The position numbers and the translations under genes are program-made. A stretch of 64,000 bases of DNA, from the NCBI GenBank assembly GCA_016865505.2, contig AP025252.1, positions 4,920,137 to 4,984,136 of the forward strand. The letters run 5' to 3'. Positions within the stretch are counted from its first letter, which is position 1; each line of letters begins with the position of its first letter. The notes beneath the pieces were generated by a model. That model saw only the letters and a program-made list of their open reading frames with translations, did no database searches and was not told where the DNA came from. This DNA comes from Bryobacterales bacterium F-183 (GTDB lineage Bacteria > Acidobacteriota > Terriglobia > Bryobacterales > Bryobacteraceae). Shown here piece by piece: positions 16,598 to 30,245 of this stretch.

Positions 16598-18013
16598 GTG
16601 ACGTTAGACTCTCTCGGTTTGGCCCTTGGTTCGCTTCCGGTTCTCCCGGTCCATCCGATGACCTTGCCTCAGCCGGAGGCCTCGCAGTCATTCGAGGCAA
16701 TGTTGCTCCAAGTAGCCATCGAGGACGTTCCGACTTTTCCTATTCAGCTACCTGTGAATTCAGAAGACGCCCTGCCTCCTTCGGATGGACGGTTCGCCTC
16801 CATTCCCCAGGATGATCCACTCCCAACTGAGGTCGGTCTACCTACGACAGTGCTGCCGTCGGTGGTGTTAGACAAGCCGAGTAACTCGAAACTGCTATCA
16901 CTGCTCAAAGAGGACACAGTCGACGACTTGAGGCAGAATGCTGACGATCCGCCGAGTATTGCTGACGATCCAACTGTTAACGAAGCTCCGCCCTCTAACG
17001 ACCTTAGGCCTTGGCCGGAGGGGATGCAAAGGTTAGAGACGTGGGCACCCCCTCCTTCTCTCGCAGTACCGCACGTTCACACACAGCCTAGCGCCATAGG
17101 CCCTCTCCGCACGCCGAACCCCCAGCCAGAAGTTCCCACCGCGGTCGGGCTTGTGGAGCAAGACCCTCTTCGCCCCACACCCGACCTGCGCCTGGCGAGT
17201 CTGAGTCCGTCGCCCCAGAACGCATTCGAGATTGAGGTTCGGCTAACTCGTTCGGCGGCAAAGCAGTTGCTGCCTCAGCACGCAACTAGAGAATACGTCG
17301 GGGAGCCTATTACTGCTCCAGTGGCGGATGGCACCACTGATCAGGTCGCACCGGAACATCCGTCCACACCCAAGCAGGAAGTGTCATCTCCACACGAGCC
17401 ACTAGACAGGCCGGTCGAGAACTATAAGGCGATAGCCACTATCGAGCCTATTTCAACCAACAGCCAGACCGACGGGAACTCTTCCGACACGAGGTCATCC
17501 AACGGGGAAATGCCACAGCCCCTCAACAGAACTACCAGTAACGAGATCAACTCCCTCAATACCGCGCCTTCACAGCAAGATACCGCCTCTGCTAGTAAGT
17601 GGCGCTTGGACGACATTCAGCATCTTCGATTTGAGGCGGAACGCCAGCTTGCGGAGGCGCCACTACGGACTGTTCGTCTACAGGTTGGCGAAGGGCGGCA
17701 TGCAGTTGAGGTATCGCTTGTCAACAAGCCACGTGGCATTGAGATTGCAGCAAAGGTCAGCGACCCAGAACTGACTGCATCGCTCCGTCGCGAACTGCCG
17801 GCACTATCTACGAACCTTACCAACAATGGGTACGACGTGCGAATAGGCCACCCAAACCAAGATCAGATCCCAGCACCACCCGCATCCGTGAGCGCACAGT
17901 TCGACGAGCGCAACCGCGACACCGGAGAGGGTACCGCACGAGAGCGACAGCGAAACAAAAAAAATCAGCCCGCAAGCCAAGGGAGTGCGGGACGAAAGAG
18001 AGGACAATCATGA
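16598..18013 (+). CDS. fliK: Hook-length control protein FliK
   Basis: This 471-residue protein has a long, Pro/Thr/Ser-rich low-complexity body and a compact C-terminal domain with RTVRLQVGEGRHAVEVSLVNKPRGIEIAAKVSDPELTA... then LRRELPALSTNLTNNGYDVRI, the FliK C-terminal fold that contacts FlhB to switch export from hook to filament subunits. GTG at 16598 has GAGG 6-9 bases upstream; ATG at 16661 is an alternative. It overlaps flgD as ATGA and heads the rightward flagellar operon. Confidence 0.88.
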   Translation: MTLDSLGLALGSLPVLPVHPMTLPQPEASQSFEAMLLQVAIEDVPTFPIQLPVNSEDALPPSDGRFASIPQDDPLPTEVGLPTTVLPSVVLDKPSNSKLLSLLKEDTVDDLRQNADDPPSIADDPTVNEAPPSNDLRPWPEGMQRLETWAPPPSLAVPHVHTQPSAIGPLRTPNPQPEVPTAVGLVEQDPLRPTPDLRLASLSPSPQNAFEIEVRLTRSAAKQLLPQHATREYVGEPITAPVADGTTDQVAPEHPSTPKQEVSSPHEPLDRPVENYKAIATIEPISTNSQTDGNSSDTRSSNGEMPQPLNRTTSNEINSLNTAPSQQDTASASKWRLDDIQHLRFEAERQLAEAPLRTVRLQVGEGRHAVEVSLVNKPRGIEIAAKVSDPELTASLRRELPALSTNLTNNGYDVRIGHPNQDQIPAPPASVSAQFDERNRDTGEGTARERQRNKKNQPASQGSAGRKRGQS

Positions 18014-18300
18014 GCATTACCGCTGTAACCGGAACGACCGGCCAAAGCACAGCACCTCAGAAGACGACTCCGTTGGCAGATCCGCTGACATCGAAGAACA
18101 CCTTCCTACAACTGCTGGTCGCGCAGATGCGGAATCAGGATCCGCTTCAACCGCAGGACGGAGCTGCCTACTTGACACAGCTAGCGCAGTTCAGTGGCCT
18201 CGAGCAGACTGTCCAGCTGAGGGACGAAGTTGCTTCCGTCCGTGAAGCGGTCGAAGCGCTTACACAAGTCGTTCAGCAGACCAACGTGAAGGAGACATAA
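18010..18300 (+). CDS. flgD: Hook-capping scaffold FlgD (short form)
   Basis: FlgD caps the growing hook. The 96-residue protein keeps the conserved N-terminal motif NTFLQLLVAQMRNQDPLQPQDGAAYLTQLAQFSGLEQ and a following helix, but the Tudor/Ig-like C-terminal part present in most FlgD proteins (about 220 residues) is missing. Short forms are known in some lineages. It overlaps fliK by 4 bases and is followed by flgE, the protein it polymerises. Confidence 0.93.
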   Translation: MSITAVTGTTGQSTAPQKTTPLADPLTSKNTFLQLLVAQMRNQDPLQPQDGAAYLTQLAQFSGLEQTVQLRDEVASVREAVEALTQVVQQTNVKET

Positions 18301-19808: not shown

Positions 19809-20074
19809 TGCAATCTCTTTTGTTGGCCTTACTTCTAATGGCGAGCGCTGGTTTCATCGCGTATCGGAAGCTGCGAGCCGGTGCTTGGTTGAAGCATGGG
19901 ACAGTTCGGCATATCGAGGTCGTTGATCGGCTACCGCTCACACCTCAGCACTCTATACACCTTGTGAAACTAAAGGGGCGTTGGCTCGCAGTCGCGGTAT
20001 CGCCGGCTGGATGTACCGTTCTCGACTCCGGGATGGAGACTGATCACGCTCGGGCGGTGGGGGCAGGACGCTGA
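19805..20074 (+). CDS. fliO: Flagellar export gate accessory protein FliO
   Basis: This 89-residue protein has one N-terminal membrane helix (MQSLLLALLLMASAGFIAYRKL) and a small beta domain with RHIEVVDRLPLTPQHSIHLVKLKGRWLAVAVSP, the short FliO pattern. FliO assists FliP assembly. Its position between fliN and fliP, overlapping both by a few bases, supports the call for a family with little sequence conservation. Confidence 0.85.
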   Translation: MMQSLLLALLLMASAGFIAYRKLRAGAWLKHGTVRHIEVVDRLPLTPQHSIHLVKLKGRWLAVAVSPAGCTVLDSGMETDHARAVGAGR

Positions 20075-20775
20075 TGCGTGGTGTAATCCTTTCTTTAGTG
20101 TCGGCACTGCCACTATGGGCGGGGCCCAGCGATAGTAGGGGACCAGACCAGATTCTTGGCGTCCCCATGCAGATCCTCGCACTGATGACTGCGTTGACGG
20201 TTCTTCCGGCAGTCATCATGTCATTGACTCCATTCCTTCGGATCGTCATTGTTCTTCACTTCCTAAGGCAGGCACTGGGGACCCAATCAACACCTTCCAA
20301 TCAAGTGCTCACAGGTTTGTCCCTCTTTCTAGCCCTCCTGATCGTTCAACCAACGGGTGTCGAGATCTACAACAACGCTTGGGTACCGATGGAGAAAGGG
20401 GAGATATCCGGGAAAGCAGCATGGGATCGCGCACAAGCCCCGGCCGCACGTTTTCTTGCACGGTATGTGCGGGAGAAGGACGTTGAGCTGTTTGTGAAGT
20501 TGTCTGGCTCAGCAGCGCCGAAGTCAGCAAAGGATCTGGGGATAGAGATTCTAGCTCCTGCCTACATCCTTTCTGAACTTAAAGCTGGGTTCCAGATCGG
20601 TGCGGTCCTATTTCTTCCATTCCTGATATTGGACCTGGTTGTCGCGTCCCTTACACTGTCGATCGGAATGGTGCAATTACCACCGGCGATGATCTCGGCA
20701 CCATTCAAGATCATGTTGTTCGTGCTGATTGATGGCTGGAATCTACTCATCGGCTCGCTTGTCAAGAGTTTCTAG
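20074..20775 (+). CDS. fliP: Flagellar export gate protein FliP
   Basis: FliP, with FliQ and FliR, makes the core channel of the flagellar type III export gate. The 233-residue protein has a short signal-like head, then MSLTPFLRIVIVLHFLRQALGTQSTPSNQVLTGLSLFLAL (FliP signature 1) and the late FLPFLILDLVVASLTLSIGMVQLPP. Four membrane segments are visible. Its ATG overlaps the fliO stop (TGATG). Length is typical. Confidence 0.97.
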   Translation: MRGVILSLVSALPLWAGPSDSRGPDQILGVPMQILALMTALTVLPAVIMSLTPFLRIVIVLHFLRQALGTQSTPSNQVLTGLSLFLALLIVQPTGVEIYNNAWVPMEKGEISGKAAWDRAQAPAARFLARYVREKDVELFVKLSGSAAPKSAKDLGIEILAPAYILSELKAGFQIGAVLFLPFLILDLVVASLTLSIGMVQLPPAMISAPFKIMLFVLIDGWNLLIGSLVKSF

Positions 20776-20783
20776 ACGCATTT

Positions 20784-21053
20784 ATGACCACCTCAGCCGC
20801 CTTAGAGCTTGTACGCGGAAGCCTGTACACCACCCTCTGGCTATGCCTTCCTCTGCTTGCAATCGGATTCGTCGCGAGCATCATCATCAGTTTGGTGCAA
20901 ACACTCACGGCGATTCAGGATAGCGCCTTCTCAGCGTTGCCCCGATTGGTTGTGTTTCTTGTGGCACTAATTGTGGCCTTGCCCTGGATGCTCCAACGAT
21001 GGATTGACTACACCGTCGCCCTTCTGGGAGACCTCAGCAAGTATGTACGATGA
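20784..21053 (+). CDS. fliQ: Flagellar export gate protein FliQ
   Basis: This 89-residue protein has two membrane helices: LYTTLWLCLPLLAIGFVASIIISLVQTLTAIQDS, then PRLVVFLVALIVALPWMLQRWIDYTVALL. That is the standard FliQ length and arrangement, including the QxxTxIQDxxF loop. It lies 8 bases after fliP and overlaps the start of fliR by 11 bases. Confidence 0.96.
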   Translation: MTTSAALELVRGSLYTTLWLCLPLLAIGFVASIIISLVQTLTAIQDSAFSALPRLVVFLVALIVALPWMLQRWIDYTVALLGDLSKYVR

Positions 21054-21807
21054 CCGCACCGTTACCATTACGTTCCTGTCGATCCTGGCAAGAACGTCGG
21101 CAGTACTGGCCTTTGTACCGATCCCTGGCTTGCGGTCGCCAGTATCCATCGCGCGGGCAGTCCTAAGCTTGGCTGTGTCCGCTGCCTTGTATCCGGGATG
21201 CCCGCGGGTGTCCCAGAGCCATGCGGGTAGCGGCGGCCAGATCCTCGCCTTGATGATTGCTGAGCTTTGCATTGGGCTGACGGCCGGTTTGCTGCTGAGC
21301 TTTTTCTTCGAGGTGTTCCAGTTCTCCGCGCAAATGCTGAGTCAACAGGCCGGCTTCTCTTACGCGGCAACAATCGATCCGACCAACAACACCGATACCG
21401 GCGTTCTTTTGGTATTGTCACAGTTGCTTGCGGGACTTCTTGCGCTTGGGCTTGGCCTAGACCGTCAGATCGTCAGCTTAATCGGAGATAGCCTCAAGAC
21501 GATCCCGCCGGGCCAATACCAACTCACCCCACAGTTGCTGGCGGATGTGCAGCGAGCGGGCAGCACGGTCTTTGAGCTGGGTGCCACCATGGCCCTGCCA
21601 TCGGTAACCGTTTTTCTTTGCATCGATGTAATTCTCGGCGTTCTAAGTCGTGTGGAACAGCAATTGCAACTCACTACAATATTGTTCCCTCTGAAGACGG
21701 CCGGTTCGGTTGCTGTCGTTATTCTGATTTTCGCAACGTATCCAACCCTCCTGAGTCGGCTTCTCGAGACGACCATAGCCTCGATTCGCCACGCGATGGG
21801 GGTGTAA
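21043..21807 (+). CDS. fliR: Flagellar export gate protein FliR
   Basis: This gate protein of about 254 residues has six hydrophobic segments, FVPIPGLRSPVSIARAVLSLAVS near the N terminus, then ELCIGLTAGLLLSFFFEVFQFSAQMLSQQAGFSYAATIDPTNN and QLLAGLLALGLGLDRQIVSLI, all typical. ATG at 21043 is chosen; an earlier in-frame start would extend well into fliQ with no conserved sequence. The stop TAA at 21805-21807 lies one base before the apparent AUC start of flhB, so translation of flhB may depend on ribosomes ending fliR. Confidence 0.95.
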   Translation: MYDDRTVTITFLSILARTSAVLAFVPIPGLRSPVSIARAVLSLAVSAALYPGCPRVSQSHAGSGGQILALMIAELCIGLTAGLLLSFFFEVFQFSAQMLSQQAGFSYAATIDPTNNTDTGVLLVLSQLLAGLLALGLGLDRQIVSLIGDSLKTIPPGQYQLTPQLLADVQRAGSTVFELGATMALPSVTVFLCIDVILGVLSRVEQQLQLTTILFPLKTAGSVAVVILIFATYPTLLSRLLETTIASIRHAMGV

Positions 21808-21811
21808 CATC
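21798..21811 (+). promoter_or_regulatory. Apparent ribosome site and ATC start codon of flhB
   Basis: GGGGGTG at 21798-21804 is a good Shine-Dalgarno match. It lies within the last codons of fliR, followed by the fliR stop and one base, then ATC at 21809-21811. Spacing from GGGGG to ATC is 6 bases. Rare AUU/AUC starts are known elsewhere and are usually under special control (for example infC, AUU); here coupling to fliR is the likely aid. Confidence 0.55.
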
Positions 21812-22867
21812 GCTGACCATTCAAACAAGACAGAGAAACCTACTCCACGGCGACTGGAGAAGGCTCGCAAAGAGGGCCAGTTTCCGGTTAGCCGCGACCT
21901 GTACATCGGGATTCAGATGCTGAGTTTTGCCTGCATTCTCGGCTACACCACTTACGCCTCGGTGGATCGATATCTGGCACTTAATCGAACGTGGCTACTC
22001 GCCGGTTTTGAAGGAACCTGGACTGCAAATCGTTTCCTCAGCATGGTCCGGGGCTCTGTCGTTCCCGAACTCCTCCGTCTTGGCGGGATTCTAGCGTTAA
22101 TCTCAGGCTTGAGCTTGGGGATACACCTTGCTTCAACAGGGTTCGGACTGGCGTGGACGAAGTTGACGCCGGACATCAAACGTCTGAATCCGATGTCGCG
22201 CCTTAGCCAGTTGCCGGCGGAGCGATTTCACCAAACGCTGAAGTCAATTGTTCTACTCGTCGTGACTGGCTGGTTGGTGTGGCACCTCCTTTCGACCGGT
22301 CTGTCTCAGCTGGTCACCGCCGGTATTGTTCCGCTTCAAGCGGCGATCAGGAACACCGTCATGGTTGTGCATCGCGCCATTTGGATGGCTGCCGGGGTAG
22401 TTGCGCTAGCCGGAGCGTTGGATTACGGGTGGCAACTCATGCAGCATCGGAAGAATCTCCGTATGAGTAAGCAAGAGATAAAGGACGAACACAAAGAGTC
22501 GGAAGGGAGTCCGGAAGTCAAGATGCGCATCCGCAGACTTCAACGTGACTTCGCACGACGTTCGATGTTCAAAGAGATTCCCACCGCAACTGCAGTCATC
22601 GTGAATCCCACCCACTACGCCGTTGCGATTCGATATTCTCCCGGCTCGGCTGGTGCTCCAACCGTGGTGGCTAAAGGAAAGAACTATATCGCGCTCAGAA
22701 TTCGTGAGAAGGCTGTCGCGGCCGGCGTGCCACTAGTCGAAAACAAGCCACTCGCACAGGCACTTTACCGCAATGCTCAGATCGGTCAAGAGATTCCTCC
22801 GGAACTGTACCGAGCCGTAGCCGAAGTACTTGCCTATATCTTCAAGTTGATGAATGGAAGGTCTTAA
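21809..22867 (+). CDS. flhB: Flagellar export switch protein FlhB, non-AUG start
   Basis: FlhB gates substrate switching and cleaves itself at NPTH, present here in VIVNPTHYAVAIRY. Counting from 21809 the protein has 352 residues, the normal length, and its head ADHSNKTEKPTPRRLEKARKEGQFPVSRDL matches the strongly conserved FlhB N terminus. Yet between the in-frame stop at 21776 and this conserved head there is no ATG, GTG, TTG or CTG. The codon in the usual Met position is ATC at 21809, preceded by GGGGGTG (21798-21804). The first ATG, at 21917, would remove 36 conserved residues. Either AUC initiates here or the sequence holds a one-base error. Confidence 0.9.
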   Translation: MADHSNKTEKPTPRRLEKARKEGQFPVSRDLYIGIQMLSFACILGYTTYASVDRYLALNRTWLLAGFEGTWTANRFLSMVRGSVVPELLRLGGILALISGLSLGIHLASTGFGLAWTKLTPDIKRLNPMSRLSQLPAERFHQTLKSIVLLVVTGWLVWHLLSTGLSQLVTAGIVPLQAAIRNTVMVVHRAIWMAAGVVALAGALDYGWQLMQHRKNLRMSKQEIKDEHKESEGSPEVKMRIRRLQRDFARRSMFKEIPTATAVIVNPTHYAVAIRYSPGSAGAPTVVAKGKNYIALRIREKAVAAGVPLVENKPLAQALYRNAQIGQEIPPELYRAVAEVLAYIFKLMNGRS

Positions 22868-24977
22868 ACTCAAAATGCCAAACGCCGCTTCGCCGACCCT
22901 CGCACCAGCGTCAAGTCCAACCGCGTCGGGCAACCCCATGAGCTCTTTAGGGTTCGACCTGAAGGCGCTGGGAGACCTTGGCGTTCCAGTTTCCGTGCTG
23001 GCGATTGTGCTTGCCATGATCATGCCCCTGCCGGCATTTCTGCTCGACGTGCTGATCAGTGCCAACGTTGCAATCGCGGTTATCGTGCTGCTGGTTTCGA
23101 TGTACATTAAGCGTCCTGCTGAGTTCAGTGTGTTTCCCACGGCGCTTTTATTGCTGACACTCTTTCGGCTTGCGCTCAACATCTCGTCTTCGCGCCTGAT
23201 TCTCCTAAACGGCAACGCTGGTACCTCGGCCGCTGGGGACGTTATCGAGGCCTTCGGAAACTTCGTCATTGGGGGCAACTACGTCATTGGAATCGTGATG
23301 TTCCTTGTTCTACTCGCCATCCAATACGTGGTAATCAACCACGGTGCTGTTCGCATCTCCGAAGTGTCGGCTCGCTTTACTTTGGATGCCCTACCTGGCA
23401 AACAGATGTCGATCGACTCCGACCTGAACGCGGGTCTCATTGATGAGTCAGAAGCTCGCGCCCGGCGTAAAACACTAGCGGCCGAGGCCGAGTTCTACGG
23501 TTCGATGGACGGTGCATCCCGCTTTACGCAGCGAGATGCAATCGCTAGCATCCTGATTACGGCAATCAACATCTTTGCCGGGTTCCTTATCGGGGTACTG
23601 CAGCATGACATGGACCTCCGCCGGGCAATCGAAACCTACACGATTCTCACTATTGGCGATGGACTCGTAACAGTCATTCCCGCCTTAATGATCTCGGTCT
23701 CCGGCGGTCTGATAGTGACCCGCGCGGGCTCAGACGCTAGGCTGGGCGCCGACGTTCGTACGCAGCTGTTCGCGAATCCTCAGCCCTTAATCCTTGCGGC
23801 GGTCGTGCTCACCTTGATGGCGGCAGTGCCAGGCTTGCCCAAAATCCCATTCTTGCTGCTCGGCCTAACGGTTGGGTCGCTCGGTTGGAAGCTTCGCCAA
23901 AATCCGGTCACTGACGAAAAAATGGCGCTCGCAACACCAACTCAGACTAAAGATACTCTGGAGAACCTGCTTCGCGTGGAGCCGCTGGCAGTAGAGGTTG
24001 GATTGGGACTCGTGCGGCATGTTGAAGGAGGGGTGAACTCACCCCTTTTGCGGCGAATTGGGGCGATTCGGAGGCAGCTTGCCTCCGATCTCGGATTCCT
24101 CCTGCCTCCGGTGCGGGTAACGGACAACCTATCTTTGAAGGTGCAGGAGTACGTGTTCCACCTAAAGGGAATCGAGATCGCACGATTCGAGATGCAACAG
24201 AACTGCGATCTTGCAATCCGTCCTGATCCCACACTTCCGCCGATCGACGGAGTACCAACACAAGAGCCGGCATTTGGAATCCCAGCGGTGTGGGTGCCTA
24301 GCTCACGTTCTGCTGCAGCGCGCACTGCAGGATATACGGTCGTTGACTCAATTAGTGTAATCGGCACGCATCTCGTTGAAACGATTCGGCGCAATGCGCA
24401 CGAGTTGTTCTCGCGACAGGACGCCAAGAAGTTGCTGGACCGGGTTGCAGAAGAGAATCCGAAAGTAGTTGAAGATCTGGTACCGAAATTGCTTCCTATG
24501 GCGACGGTGCAGAAAGTCCTCCAGAACCTTCTTCGTGAGCGAGTGTCGATTCGAGACGGAGCCAGCATTCTCGAAGCGCTGAGCGAAGCCGCTGCTGTGA
24601 CACGTAATCCCATCCTGCTGACAGAATATGTGCGGCAAAGCCTGCGTCGGGCTGTTGTACAGCCATATCTTTCGCCGAACGGAGATCTGCCGGCGTATCT
24701 TCTGGATCCTGCGATTGAGCAGATGATTGAAGGCGCAACTCAACATGGAGAACTCACAAGCCATCTGACTCTTTCGCCAGCACGAATCCGGGACATCATC
24801 GATCGCTTGAGCAGCCGTTTGCGTCCTTCGGACTCTAACGCAGTGTTACTCGCGAGTTCTGGTGCCCGTCACTTCCTGCGGCAAATCGTCGAGGGAGCAA
24901 TGCCTGGTCTCAACGTGATCGCGCACAATGAGATCCCCGCTGGGTTGCAGGTAGTTTCGCTCGGGACGATCGGGTAA
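22854..24977 (+). CDS. flhA: Flagellar export gate protein FlhA
   Basis: This 707-residue FHIPEP-family protein is the largest gate component. An N-terminal half with about eight membrane helices (VSVLAIVLAMIMPLPAFLLDVLISANVAIAVIVLL) holds RFTLDALPGKQMSIDSDLNAGLI and EAEFYGSMDGASRFTQRDAIASI, the family signature in the proton-coupled cytoplasmic loop. The C-terminal cytoplasmic domain (from about 350) docks chaperone-substrate complexes. The ATG at 22854 overlaps the flhB end by 14 bases; a later ATG at 22875 is possible. Confidence 0.97.
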   Translation: MEGLKLKMPNAASPTLAPASSPTASGNPMSSLGFDLKALGDLGVPVSVLAIVLAMIMPLPAFLLDVLISANVAIAVIVLLVSMYIKRPAEFSVFPTALLLLTLFRLALNISSSRLILLNGNAGTSAAGDVIEAFGNFVIGGNYVIGIVMFLVLLAIQYVVINHGAVRISEVSARFTLDALPGKQMSIDSDLNAGLIDESEARARRKTLAAEAEFYGSMDGASRFTQRDAIASILITAINIFAGFLIGVLQHDMDLRRAIETYTILTIGDGLVTVIPALMISVSGGLIVTRAGSDARLGADVRTQLFANPQPLILAAVVLTLMAAVPGLPKIPFLLLGLTVGSLGWKLRQNPVTDEKMALATPTQTKDTLENLLRVEPLAVEVGLGLVRHVEGGVNSPLLRRIGAIRRQLASDLGFLLPPVRVTDNLSLKVQEYVFHLKGIEIARFEMQQNCDLAIRPDPTLPPIDGVPTQEPAFGIPAVWVPSSRSAAARTAGYTVVDSISVIGTHLVETIRRNAHELFSRQDAKKLLDRVAEENPKVVEDLVPKLLPMATVQKVLQNLLRERVSIRDGASILEALSEAAAVTRNPILLTEYVRQSLRRAVVQPYLSPNGDLPAYLLDPAIEQMIEGATQHGELTSHLTLSPARIRDIIDRLSSRLRPSDSNAVLLASSGARHFLRQIVEGAMPGLNVIAHNEIPAGLQVVSLGTIG

Positions 24978-28526: not shown

Positions 28527-30245
28527 CTAGACGCTACGCTTCAAGCTCACCGCATCCATTGGTAGTTTGCGGCGTCGTGGATTGGCTGCATCACGATAGT
28601 CTCGCCAGTTCGCCGCGATCAGGTAGACGCCATAAAAGAACGCCACCAACATCAGCAGTATGACTGCGGCTAGCGCGACTTCCTGGGCGACGGTAGGCTT
28701 ATCGAAGAAGGTGGAGCTAAAGTGGCCACCGAAGTTCATCCCAAAAAAGCCGGTGATCATGGCCCCACCGCCGAACACAAGGCTCAAGACAGCGAGCCTG
28801 TTCACCGCACCCATTTGGCGGCTCTCATAGTATTCATTGAGTGTGCCATTCAGTCGCCGGACCGCGTGCTCCACCTCTTCGAGTGCTGGATCGACACGAT
28901 AGGCGCGAGCCTGCATTTCGAAATGCTCCTGCTCCTCGTCCTTGTTTGCCAGCTCGTCGAAATGCCAGAAGTTCGCAAAGTGGAGGAACTCCAGCAATAA
29001 TGCATTGGCAGCCTCGATGTTGGCTTCACCGAACTCGCGATCATCATGGAAATCGCGATAGAGACGTTTGGAAATGAGCGCGGTCCGCTCGTTCAAGTCG
29101 AGCAACGTCGCCCGGTAGAACAGCGCAATGATCGCCATCAGGTAGTAGCGCGAGCGGAACATCCGGTGAATCAGGAAGCCCTCACGCAACAAATGGTCAT
29201 CACAATCGAAGTTTCCGAGACAGACTGTAACGTTGGAATACTCGGAAAAGCCGTAGTAGGTCCCCTGATGCGCCCATCGACGGTAGAGGCTCTTCGACAT
29301 CTCCTCCTGCAGAAAACTCTCCTCGTAGCGGAATGAGAAGCCAGCCCGCTCGACATACAGTACCCGGCTGAGGAAAATCTGGTATTCGCGAGTGTGGATG
29401 TAGTCTTCTGGAACCGATTTCGGGTCGATCGCCATGTATGTGTAGACGATCATTCGCTCGTCTAACACAGGCTCGTACTCCTGGCGATCATAGTTGGTGA
29501 AGTACAGTAGACCCTTTATGAGCTTCGATAGAGGCGGCTGGTAGTTGGCGATGGATGGACGTTCCCAGTTCTCCTCGACCAGCTTGGTGCAAACGTCTTT
29601 CTCCTCAAGAATCAGCGCCTGACGCCTTGGCATGCGACCTTCGCGCAGTTGCCGCCCGCTCGACGGATAGACCTTGCGCATCATTTCATTGATCCACAAG
29701 GCCTGGCTACCCGGGATGTCCATGCATTCGACGCTCAAAGACAAGATGCCTATACCATTGGCAAACATCATCAGGCGCAAGGCGGTAACTTCCGCTGAAA
29801 TCTTTTTGCCGCGCGAGTCCTCTACCTGATAGATCAGGCGGACGTGGTCGGGGATGTCGAGCGTATAGAAACGGAGGAGGGACTCGGCTTCATCTTTCGG
29901 ATCCGCCATTCCCAAGGTGTCGAAAAACACCCGCCGTACAAACGGGTGGAAGAACACCATGTCCTGATAGGCTGGCGACTCGATGTCAAATGATGTGTAC
30001 GCCGCGCGCTTCCAACGGCCCAGCTTCGCGGTAATCAGGTCGCTGCCGCCGTGCGCGCCAATCCAGGCATCGATGCCGTCCACCCACAACGGGCAGTTGC
30101 GCCATATCTCACCGTGGTCCTTCCGTACTGCGTCCTTATCAATCGAAAAAGGAAACAGAAAGAACGTGTGCAGGTGCGACACCAACGGCAGCGAGTGCTC
30201 TCGTCCCGCTGATGGCAAGCTTGGTGGCGCGACGTTCGGACTCAC
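28527..30245 (-). CDS. Large CorA-superfamily membrane protein
   Basis: The C terminus of this 572-residue protein has two membrane helices with FGMNFGG between them (after AVLSLVFGGGAMITGF), which fits the GMN selectivity motif of CorA/ZntB-type cation channels. A long acidic helix (ANKDEEQEHFEMQARAYRVDPALEEVEHAVRRLNGTL) leads into the membrane part as in CorA. The N-terminal 430 residues are much longer than in standard CorA (about 320 in all) and not recognisable. It may carry Mg2+ or another divalent cation; the ion is not shown. It starts 3 bases after queE and is probably co-transcribed. Confidence 0.65.
   Translation of the reverse strand: MSPNVAPPSLPSAGREHSLPLVSHLHTFFLFPFSIDKDAVRKDHGEIWRNCPLWVDGIDAWIGAHGGSDLITAKLGRWKRAAYTSFDIESPAYQDMVFFHPFVRRVFFDTLGMADPKDEAESLLRFYTLDIPDHVRLIYQVEDSRGKKISAEVTALRLMMFANGIGILSLSVECMDIPGSQALWINEMMRKVYPSSGRQLREGRMPRRQALILEEKDVCTKLVEENWERPSIANYQPPLSKLIKGLLYFTNYDRQEYEPVLDERMIVYTYMAIDPKSVPEDYIHTREYQIFLSRVLYVERAGFSFRYEESFLQEEMSKSLYRRWAHQGTYYGFSEYSNVTVCLGNFDCDDHLLREGFLIHRMFRSRYYLMAIIALFYRATLLDLNERTALISKRLYRDFHDDREFGEANIEAANALLLEFLHFANFWHFDELANKDEEQEHFEMQARAYRVDPALEEVEHAVRRLNGTLNEYYESRQMGAVNRLAVLSLVFGGGAMITGFFGMNFGGHFSSTFFDKPTVAQEVALAAVILLMLVAFFYGVYLIAANWRDYRDAANPRRRKLPMDAVSLKRSV

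Follow-up and report, generated by a model that had tools for sequence, protein, structure and literature searches.

A candidate AUC start codon for flhB in a Bryobacterales genome

The Escherichia coli gene pcnB is said to have an inefficient AUU start that limits the amount of its protein. Starts of this AUH type (AUU, AUC or AUA) are also described for infC, which begins with AUU in E. coli and with ATC in Streptomyces, and IF3 is reported to repress such starts in both organisms (PMC5472188). For Staphylococcus aureus, AUH starts of ccpN, infC, citZ (AUA) and cvfC1 (AUU) are reported from ribosome profiling, those of ccpN, citZ and cvfC1 also from reporters; the yields given for AUA or AUU with a strong Shine-Dalgarno sequence are about 10% of that of AUG in poor medium, with ccpN at 30% or less in rich medium (PMC13009471). 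For 61,358 ancestral AUG starts, the switches listed by Belinky (2017, PMC5622118) lead to GUG, to UUG, twice to CUG and once to AUU, with none to AUC among those listed. A literature search for flhB together with AUC, AUA or AUU starts, made at title level and with most subscription papers outside its reach, returned no flhB case.

With the start proposed below, flhB of Bryobacterales bacterium F-183 would join the known class of AUH-start genes (infC, pcnB, ccpN). Like infC of E. coli (AUU) and Streptomyces (ATC), as described in PMC5472188, it is an otherwise ordinary gene with an AUH start; infC elsewhere differs in being the target of IF3 feedback. It shares with ccpN, infC, citZ and cvfC1 of S. 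aureus an AUH codon accompanied by a strong Shine-Dalgarno sequence, but the ccpN and cvfC1 starts are reported as conserved across species (PMC13009471), whereas the flhB AUC is known from the sequence of one genome alone. Streptomyces sigR resembles it in that a non-canonical start lowers the yield relative to a neighbouring gene, as the AUC of flhB may do; sigR differs in its codon, GTC, and in that control by IF3 has been shown for it (PMC5472188), flhB being known from sequence only. Between pcnB and flhB the AUH start is common to both, and there is no relation in sequence or pathway. A sequence-only reading of the locus, which preceded this analysis, had held that the known AUU and AUC cases are regulatory. 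This fits infC, sigR and ccpN; the AUA of citZ, whose reported conservation is limited to strains of the NCTC 8325 lineage (PMC13009471), indicates that not every AUH case is a widely conserved device.

The window, the 64,000-nucleotide stretch of the F-183 genome that was analysed, holds flhB between fliR and flhA (Table 1), and flhB is the only PF01312 gene found in the whole 6.28 Mb genome. The assignment as FlhB draws on the PF01312 domain, on the NPTH motif, which is the self-cleavage motif of FlhB, and on fliR and flhA as neighbours; the match to TIGR00328 (E 5.5e-92) scores 308.6 bits, below the cut-off of 349.25 bits. After an in-frame TAG, the flhB frame reads PRFATRWGCN, then I at the ATC, then ADHSNKTEKPTPRRLEKARKEGQF; the head read directly after the ATC is ADHSNKTEKPTPRRLEKA. 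From 21779 to the conserved head the frame is without ATG, GTG, TTG or CTG. The first in-frame CTG (21854) lies already inside the head, and the first in-frame ATG (21917) is 36 codons downstream of the ATC, 31 residues past the opening of the PF01312 match at frame residue 16. These points agree with the sequence-only reading, which had proposed that flhB lacks a canonical start and begins at ATC. On re-reading, the head is in frame right after the ATC, the fliR stop lies one base ahead of it, the GGGGGTG described as 4-6 bases before it ends four bases off, and a start at ATG 21917 would indeed delete the conserved head.

Table 1. Features around the flhB start, in window coordinates.
Feature	Positions	Strand	Basis
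fliP and fliQ	20074-21053	+	PF00813 E 2e-69; PF01313 E 5e-19
fliR, ATG 21043 as apparent start	21043-21807	+	PF01311 E 7.1e-40 on 21046-21804
TAG, in-frame stop upstream of flhB	21776-21778	+	sequence
GGGGGTG, Shine-Dalgarno-like, within the fliR end	21798-21804	+	pairing with the 16S tail
fliR stop TAA, one base (C 21808) ahead of the flhB ATC	21805-21807	+	sequence
Proposed start codon ATC of flhB	21809-21811	+	aligned with starts of relatives
flhB coding region (352 residues) from the proposed AUC to TAA	21809-22867	+	PF01312 E 2.3e-101; TIGR00328
NPTH motif of FlhB (VNPTHYA in translation)	22604-22615	+	translation
flhA, overlapping the flhB end	22854-24977	+	PF00771 E 9.5e-244

An alignment of related flhB starts, which the sequence-only reading had suggested as a check, places the ATC at the start position of relatives. 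Among the 237 genomes searched of the family Bryobacteraceae, 206 gave an FlhB match, our own included, and starts were read at 98 further loci, drawn from 97 genomes that are mostly the best-scoring of the 206 (95 parsed by script; L042, L062 and L069, missed by the parser, read by eye). All 98 have ATG, GTG or TTG 5-8 codons ahead of a TExPT-like motif. In the 95 parsed loci the nearest canonical start lies 5 codons before this motif in 6 loci, 6 codons in 9, 7 codons in 77 and 8 codons in 3. The ATC of F-183 lies 7 codons before the motif, exactly where 77 of the 95 start, and the remaining 18 start no more than 2 codons from the aligned position. The codons used by the 95 are ATG (76), GTG (14) and TTG (5), and the three loci read by eye have ATG. 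Hence only one of the 96 parsed loci, that of F-183 itself, is without a canonical flhB start. An FlhB peptide-pattern search of the genome contigs gave 20 stretches, with no relative among them.

The 16S rRNA of the genome ends in ...GGATCACCTCCTTTCT, and the duplex of GGGGGTG with this tail is worth -10.1 kcal/mol, at good spacing to the ATC. Equal or better Shine-Dalgarno energy is found at 28 of the 2182 ATH triplets on the plus strand of the window, and at 3.5% of 282 genes (800 kb) whose start lies close to the frame opening. We reject RNA structure hiding the flhB start, since the 80-base fold has a z-score of 0.04. Unusual coupling to fliR is likewise rejected. In a survey of 30 loci (5 unparsed; L003 gave no upstream ORF), where position rather than a profile match marked the upstream ORF as fliR and several loci yielded two such ORFs, 22 of 23 relatives have an upstream ORF that stops 1-30 bases ahead of flhB or shares one base with it; in the other the distance is 44 bases. 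The relatives with a tight upstream ORF have ordinary ATG, GTG or TTG flhB starts, so close fliR-flhB coupling is not special to F-183, and ribosomes terminating on fliR are therefore generally at hand. The end of FliR, RHAMGV-stop, resembles the LGI-stop and LGL-stop ends of 7 of the 23 relatives.

The search for further genes without a canonical start covered 2.4 Mb of the F-183 genome, taken in stretches, with ORFs called by our own hexamer model (2203 ORFs, 1984 of them with at least 100 coding codons and 2087 with a frame of that minimum length). Among the 680 ORFs called in the first 800 kb, flhB stood 1st of 19 rows ranked by coding signal ahead of the canonical start; over 2.0 Mb, with a different score, thiD was 6th and flhB 7th among 50 rows. 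The last 0.4 Mb added 9 rows and no further start-less gene. By eye, the 50 and 9 rows held flhB and thiD as the only convincing start-less genes, at a screen sensitivity to a lost start codon of 388 in 1635 (24%); the rows at C1:4610371 and 4310199 gave no clear call. Same-strand junctions without a canonical start numbered 13, flhB and thiD among them, and 11, including thiD, were inspected in detail, with C1:3841888 left out. A separate screen for AUH codons adjacent to upstream stops returned 59 rows. By eye none was convincing, and flhB and thiD were not listed, missed, we think, through nested false ORFs; this screen therefore carries no weight in the argument. A methyltransferase-like ORF (by eye) at C1:5244964 has ATC as a possible start, and its relatives did not fix the start.

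The second gene, thiD, has ATA as its best candidate start (C1:4546270-4546268, minus strand; locus L214; TIGR00097 E 2.5e-88). The TIGR00097 match opens 26 residues ahead of the first canonical start, and there is no canonical start in the 78 codons from the frame opening to the ALTIAGSD motif. The ATA overlaps the TAG of the upstream gene as CCATAG. Its position carries a canonical start in 21 of 28 parsed relatives (L216 unparsed) and in 48 of 77 parsed named loci (L321, L364 and L373 unparsed), two sets that overlap. The only congener available, SZAS-8 (G001, a MAG, JAFDVT010000684.1), a separate assembly, has thiD at 93% protein and 81.5% nucleotide identity. The two copies differ at 105 codons synonymously and at 18 nonsynonymously, and the stretch GGCGGTGTTGCCATAGTTCC at the start, ATA included, is identical in both (L276, L299). 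A chance error is hardly to be expected in two separate assemblies this far apart; the absence of a canonical thiD start is therefore real and has been kept in two species of the genus. The thiD Shine-Dalgarno sequence is moderate in both species, at -6.1 kcal/mol, and a strong one is thus not common to flhB and thiD. The AUA of thiD also suggests that AUH starts in this genome are not confined to a switch gene. Judged from these two genes, the genome seems to make real use of unusual start codons; the flhB ATC is known from one genome, and the AUH start kept in the second species is that of thiD only. Elsewhere among the named loci, L324 and L343 have a canonical thiD start 14-17 codons upstream. 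The thiD frame of L320 (JANYCV010000367.1, a MAG titled Acidobacteriaceae) is the one other among the 77 without a canonical start; a candidate there is the ACG located seven codons ahead of ALTIAGSD.

Altered IF3 or initiator tRNA as the cause of AUH starts was rejected, since both look ordinary. In a comparison in which 27 of 30 IF3 loci were parsed, our own included, F-183 IF3 agrees with the columns conserved at 85% in all but three positions (K for R, N for K and I for V). The initiator tRNA has the usual CAT and GGG/CCC stem, and the stretch that we take to be the 1338-1339 region of 16S rRNA reads GGAATCGC, as usual. The infC gene of the genome (C1 near 5770115, minus strand; L153, L246) apparently starts at ATG and thus seems to do without the AUH codon that begins infC elsewhere.

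We consider it probable that flhB, which lacks a canonical start, is translated from AUC 21809 by the ordinary initiator tRNA, with the strong Shine-Dalgarno sequence and the ribosomes arriving from fliR compensating. The AUC has no canonical start upstream, aligns with the starts of orthologues and lies at good spacing from its Shine-Dalgarno sequence. An ancestral canonical start would have been lost, with AUC in its place; ribosomes ending fliR would meet the strong Shine-Dalgarno sequence and the AUC one base past the stop and could re-initiate there. Pairing of fMet-tRNA at two of the three AUC positions would allow FlhB to start with methionine, and the yield would probably be well below that from AUG. 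Initiation of thiD would similarly take place at AUA, with reduced yield. The proposal of ATC as the flhB start, made in the sequence-only reading, thus gains from its position, from the Shine-Dalgarno match and from the AUH start of thiD kept in two species. The accompanying idea, that FlhB is held low and coupled to fliR as a means of regulation, stays a conjecture, as does control of flhB by IF3.

An assembly error, by which the true flhB codon is ATG or another NTG read as ATC, appears unlikely. A single base decides between the two, and the genome may hold other errors. One of the inspected junctions is a clear in-frame stop, a TAA at C1:4359256 (minus strand) that splits a long receptor-like gene, presumably a TonB-dependent receptor, and that reflects either a pseudogene or a base error; four more ORFs (4132709, 4186182, 5004797 and 4571827), without a clear reading, open right after a same-frame stop. 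With five such ORFs, some base errors in the assembly are possible. However, few genes in the 2.0 Mb are disrupted. Of coding substitutions, 3.2% create a stop, and a total of 1-5 such stops over 1.9 Mb of coding DNA, if all were errors, would correspond to 2e-5 to 8e-5 substitutions per base. The screen would then be expected, on a rough estimate, to contain only about 0.02-0.1 detectable start losses due to error, which makes a chance error at the flhB start base unlikely, and thiD, from the same screen, was confirmed in a second species. The screen and thiD together therefore argue against the sequencing error for which the sequence-only reading had allowed, a judgement made on the assembly with the reads unseen. 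The loss of the start might also be real and flhB silenced or nearly so, in a strain that has lost, or is losing, its flagella, which we regard as improbable. No close relative allows a measurement of selection on flhB, and the gene was not found in the SZAS-8 assembly by profile or DNA search (one DNA search was without a control; in another our own genome served as control). The whole cluster is absent from that assembly, though its contig C588 (L278, end 7504) simply runs out at the counterpart of window position 28545, on the edge of the flagellar cluster, and with this break SZAS-8 cannot settle the flhB base. Against silencing, the flhB frame, its NPTH motif and its Shine-Dalgarno sequence are intact, as are, by Pfam, fliP, fliQ, fliR, flhA, two FliM/N-type genes, flgE, flgH and flgI.

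Two further readings leave the AUC unused and are very unlikely. Translation might start downstream, at CTG 21854 or ATG 21917, and give an FlhB that lacks the cytoplasmic head. Of canonical starts, ATG 21917 comes first and is the one a gene caller would choose; gene callers as a rule take ATG, GTG and TTG only, so genes with AUH starts would be annotated as truncated or broken. Yet in all 98 relative loci a canonical start precedes the head, the Shine-Dalgarno sequence at 21917 is worth only -4.1 kcal/mol, and a start there would cut 31 residues from the Pfam match. A FliR-FlhB fusion, no more credible, was considered because a fused FliR/FlhB family exists (NF009411) and because FlhB frames are open for 518-610 codons in some relatives. 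It would require that the G run at 21798-21802 was miscounted, one G fewer bringing fliR into frame with flhB, or a programmed +1 shift at the fliR stop. In G044, G086 and G118, however, the three relatives with long FlhB frames that were checked, FliR is encoded in a frame of its own, 261-287 codons long; 23 relatives have a distinct upstream ORF with its end near flhB, 7 of them with LGI-stop or LGL-stop ends, and none of the inspected junctions was a clear frameshift. One continuous FliR-FlhB frame in F-183 itself is rejected, as the TAA at 21805 closes fliR and flhB is read in a frame offset by one.

If flhB does start at AUC, the number of AUH starts in the 2.4 Mb would be roughly 8, within a range of about 1-30 (2 in 2087 called frames, at a detection of ~24%), an estimate that rests on two genes, one of the thiamine pathway and one flagellar, of one screened genome. 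A genus with relaxed start-codon selection, in which a few tenths of a percent of genes have AUH starts with no visible change of IF3 or initiator tRNA, is a tentative suggestion that we think rather doubtful. A species-conserved AUA in thiD and an AUC in flhB, within one genome, offer a natural system for testing how ribosome sites and coupling rescue weak starts. The same pair raises the questions of whether some lineages tolerate weak starts more often than E. coli and of whether a low yield of FlhB is of use or merely tolerated.

Two observations concern the neighbouring flagellar genes. In flhA a second ATG, at 22875, has a Shine-Dalgarno sequence of -6.9 kcal/mol, versus -0.2 at ATG 22854. 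The flgD gene (window 18010-18297) is very short, its 96 residues comprising the hook-cap N-terminal region only.
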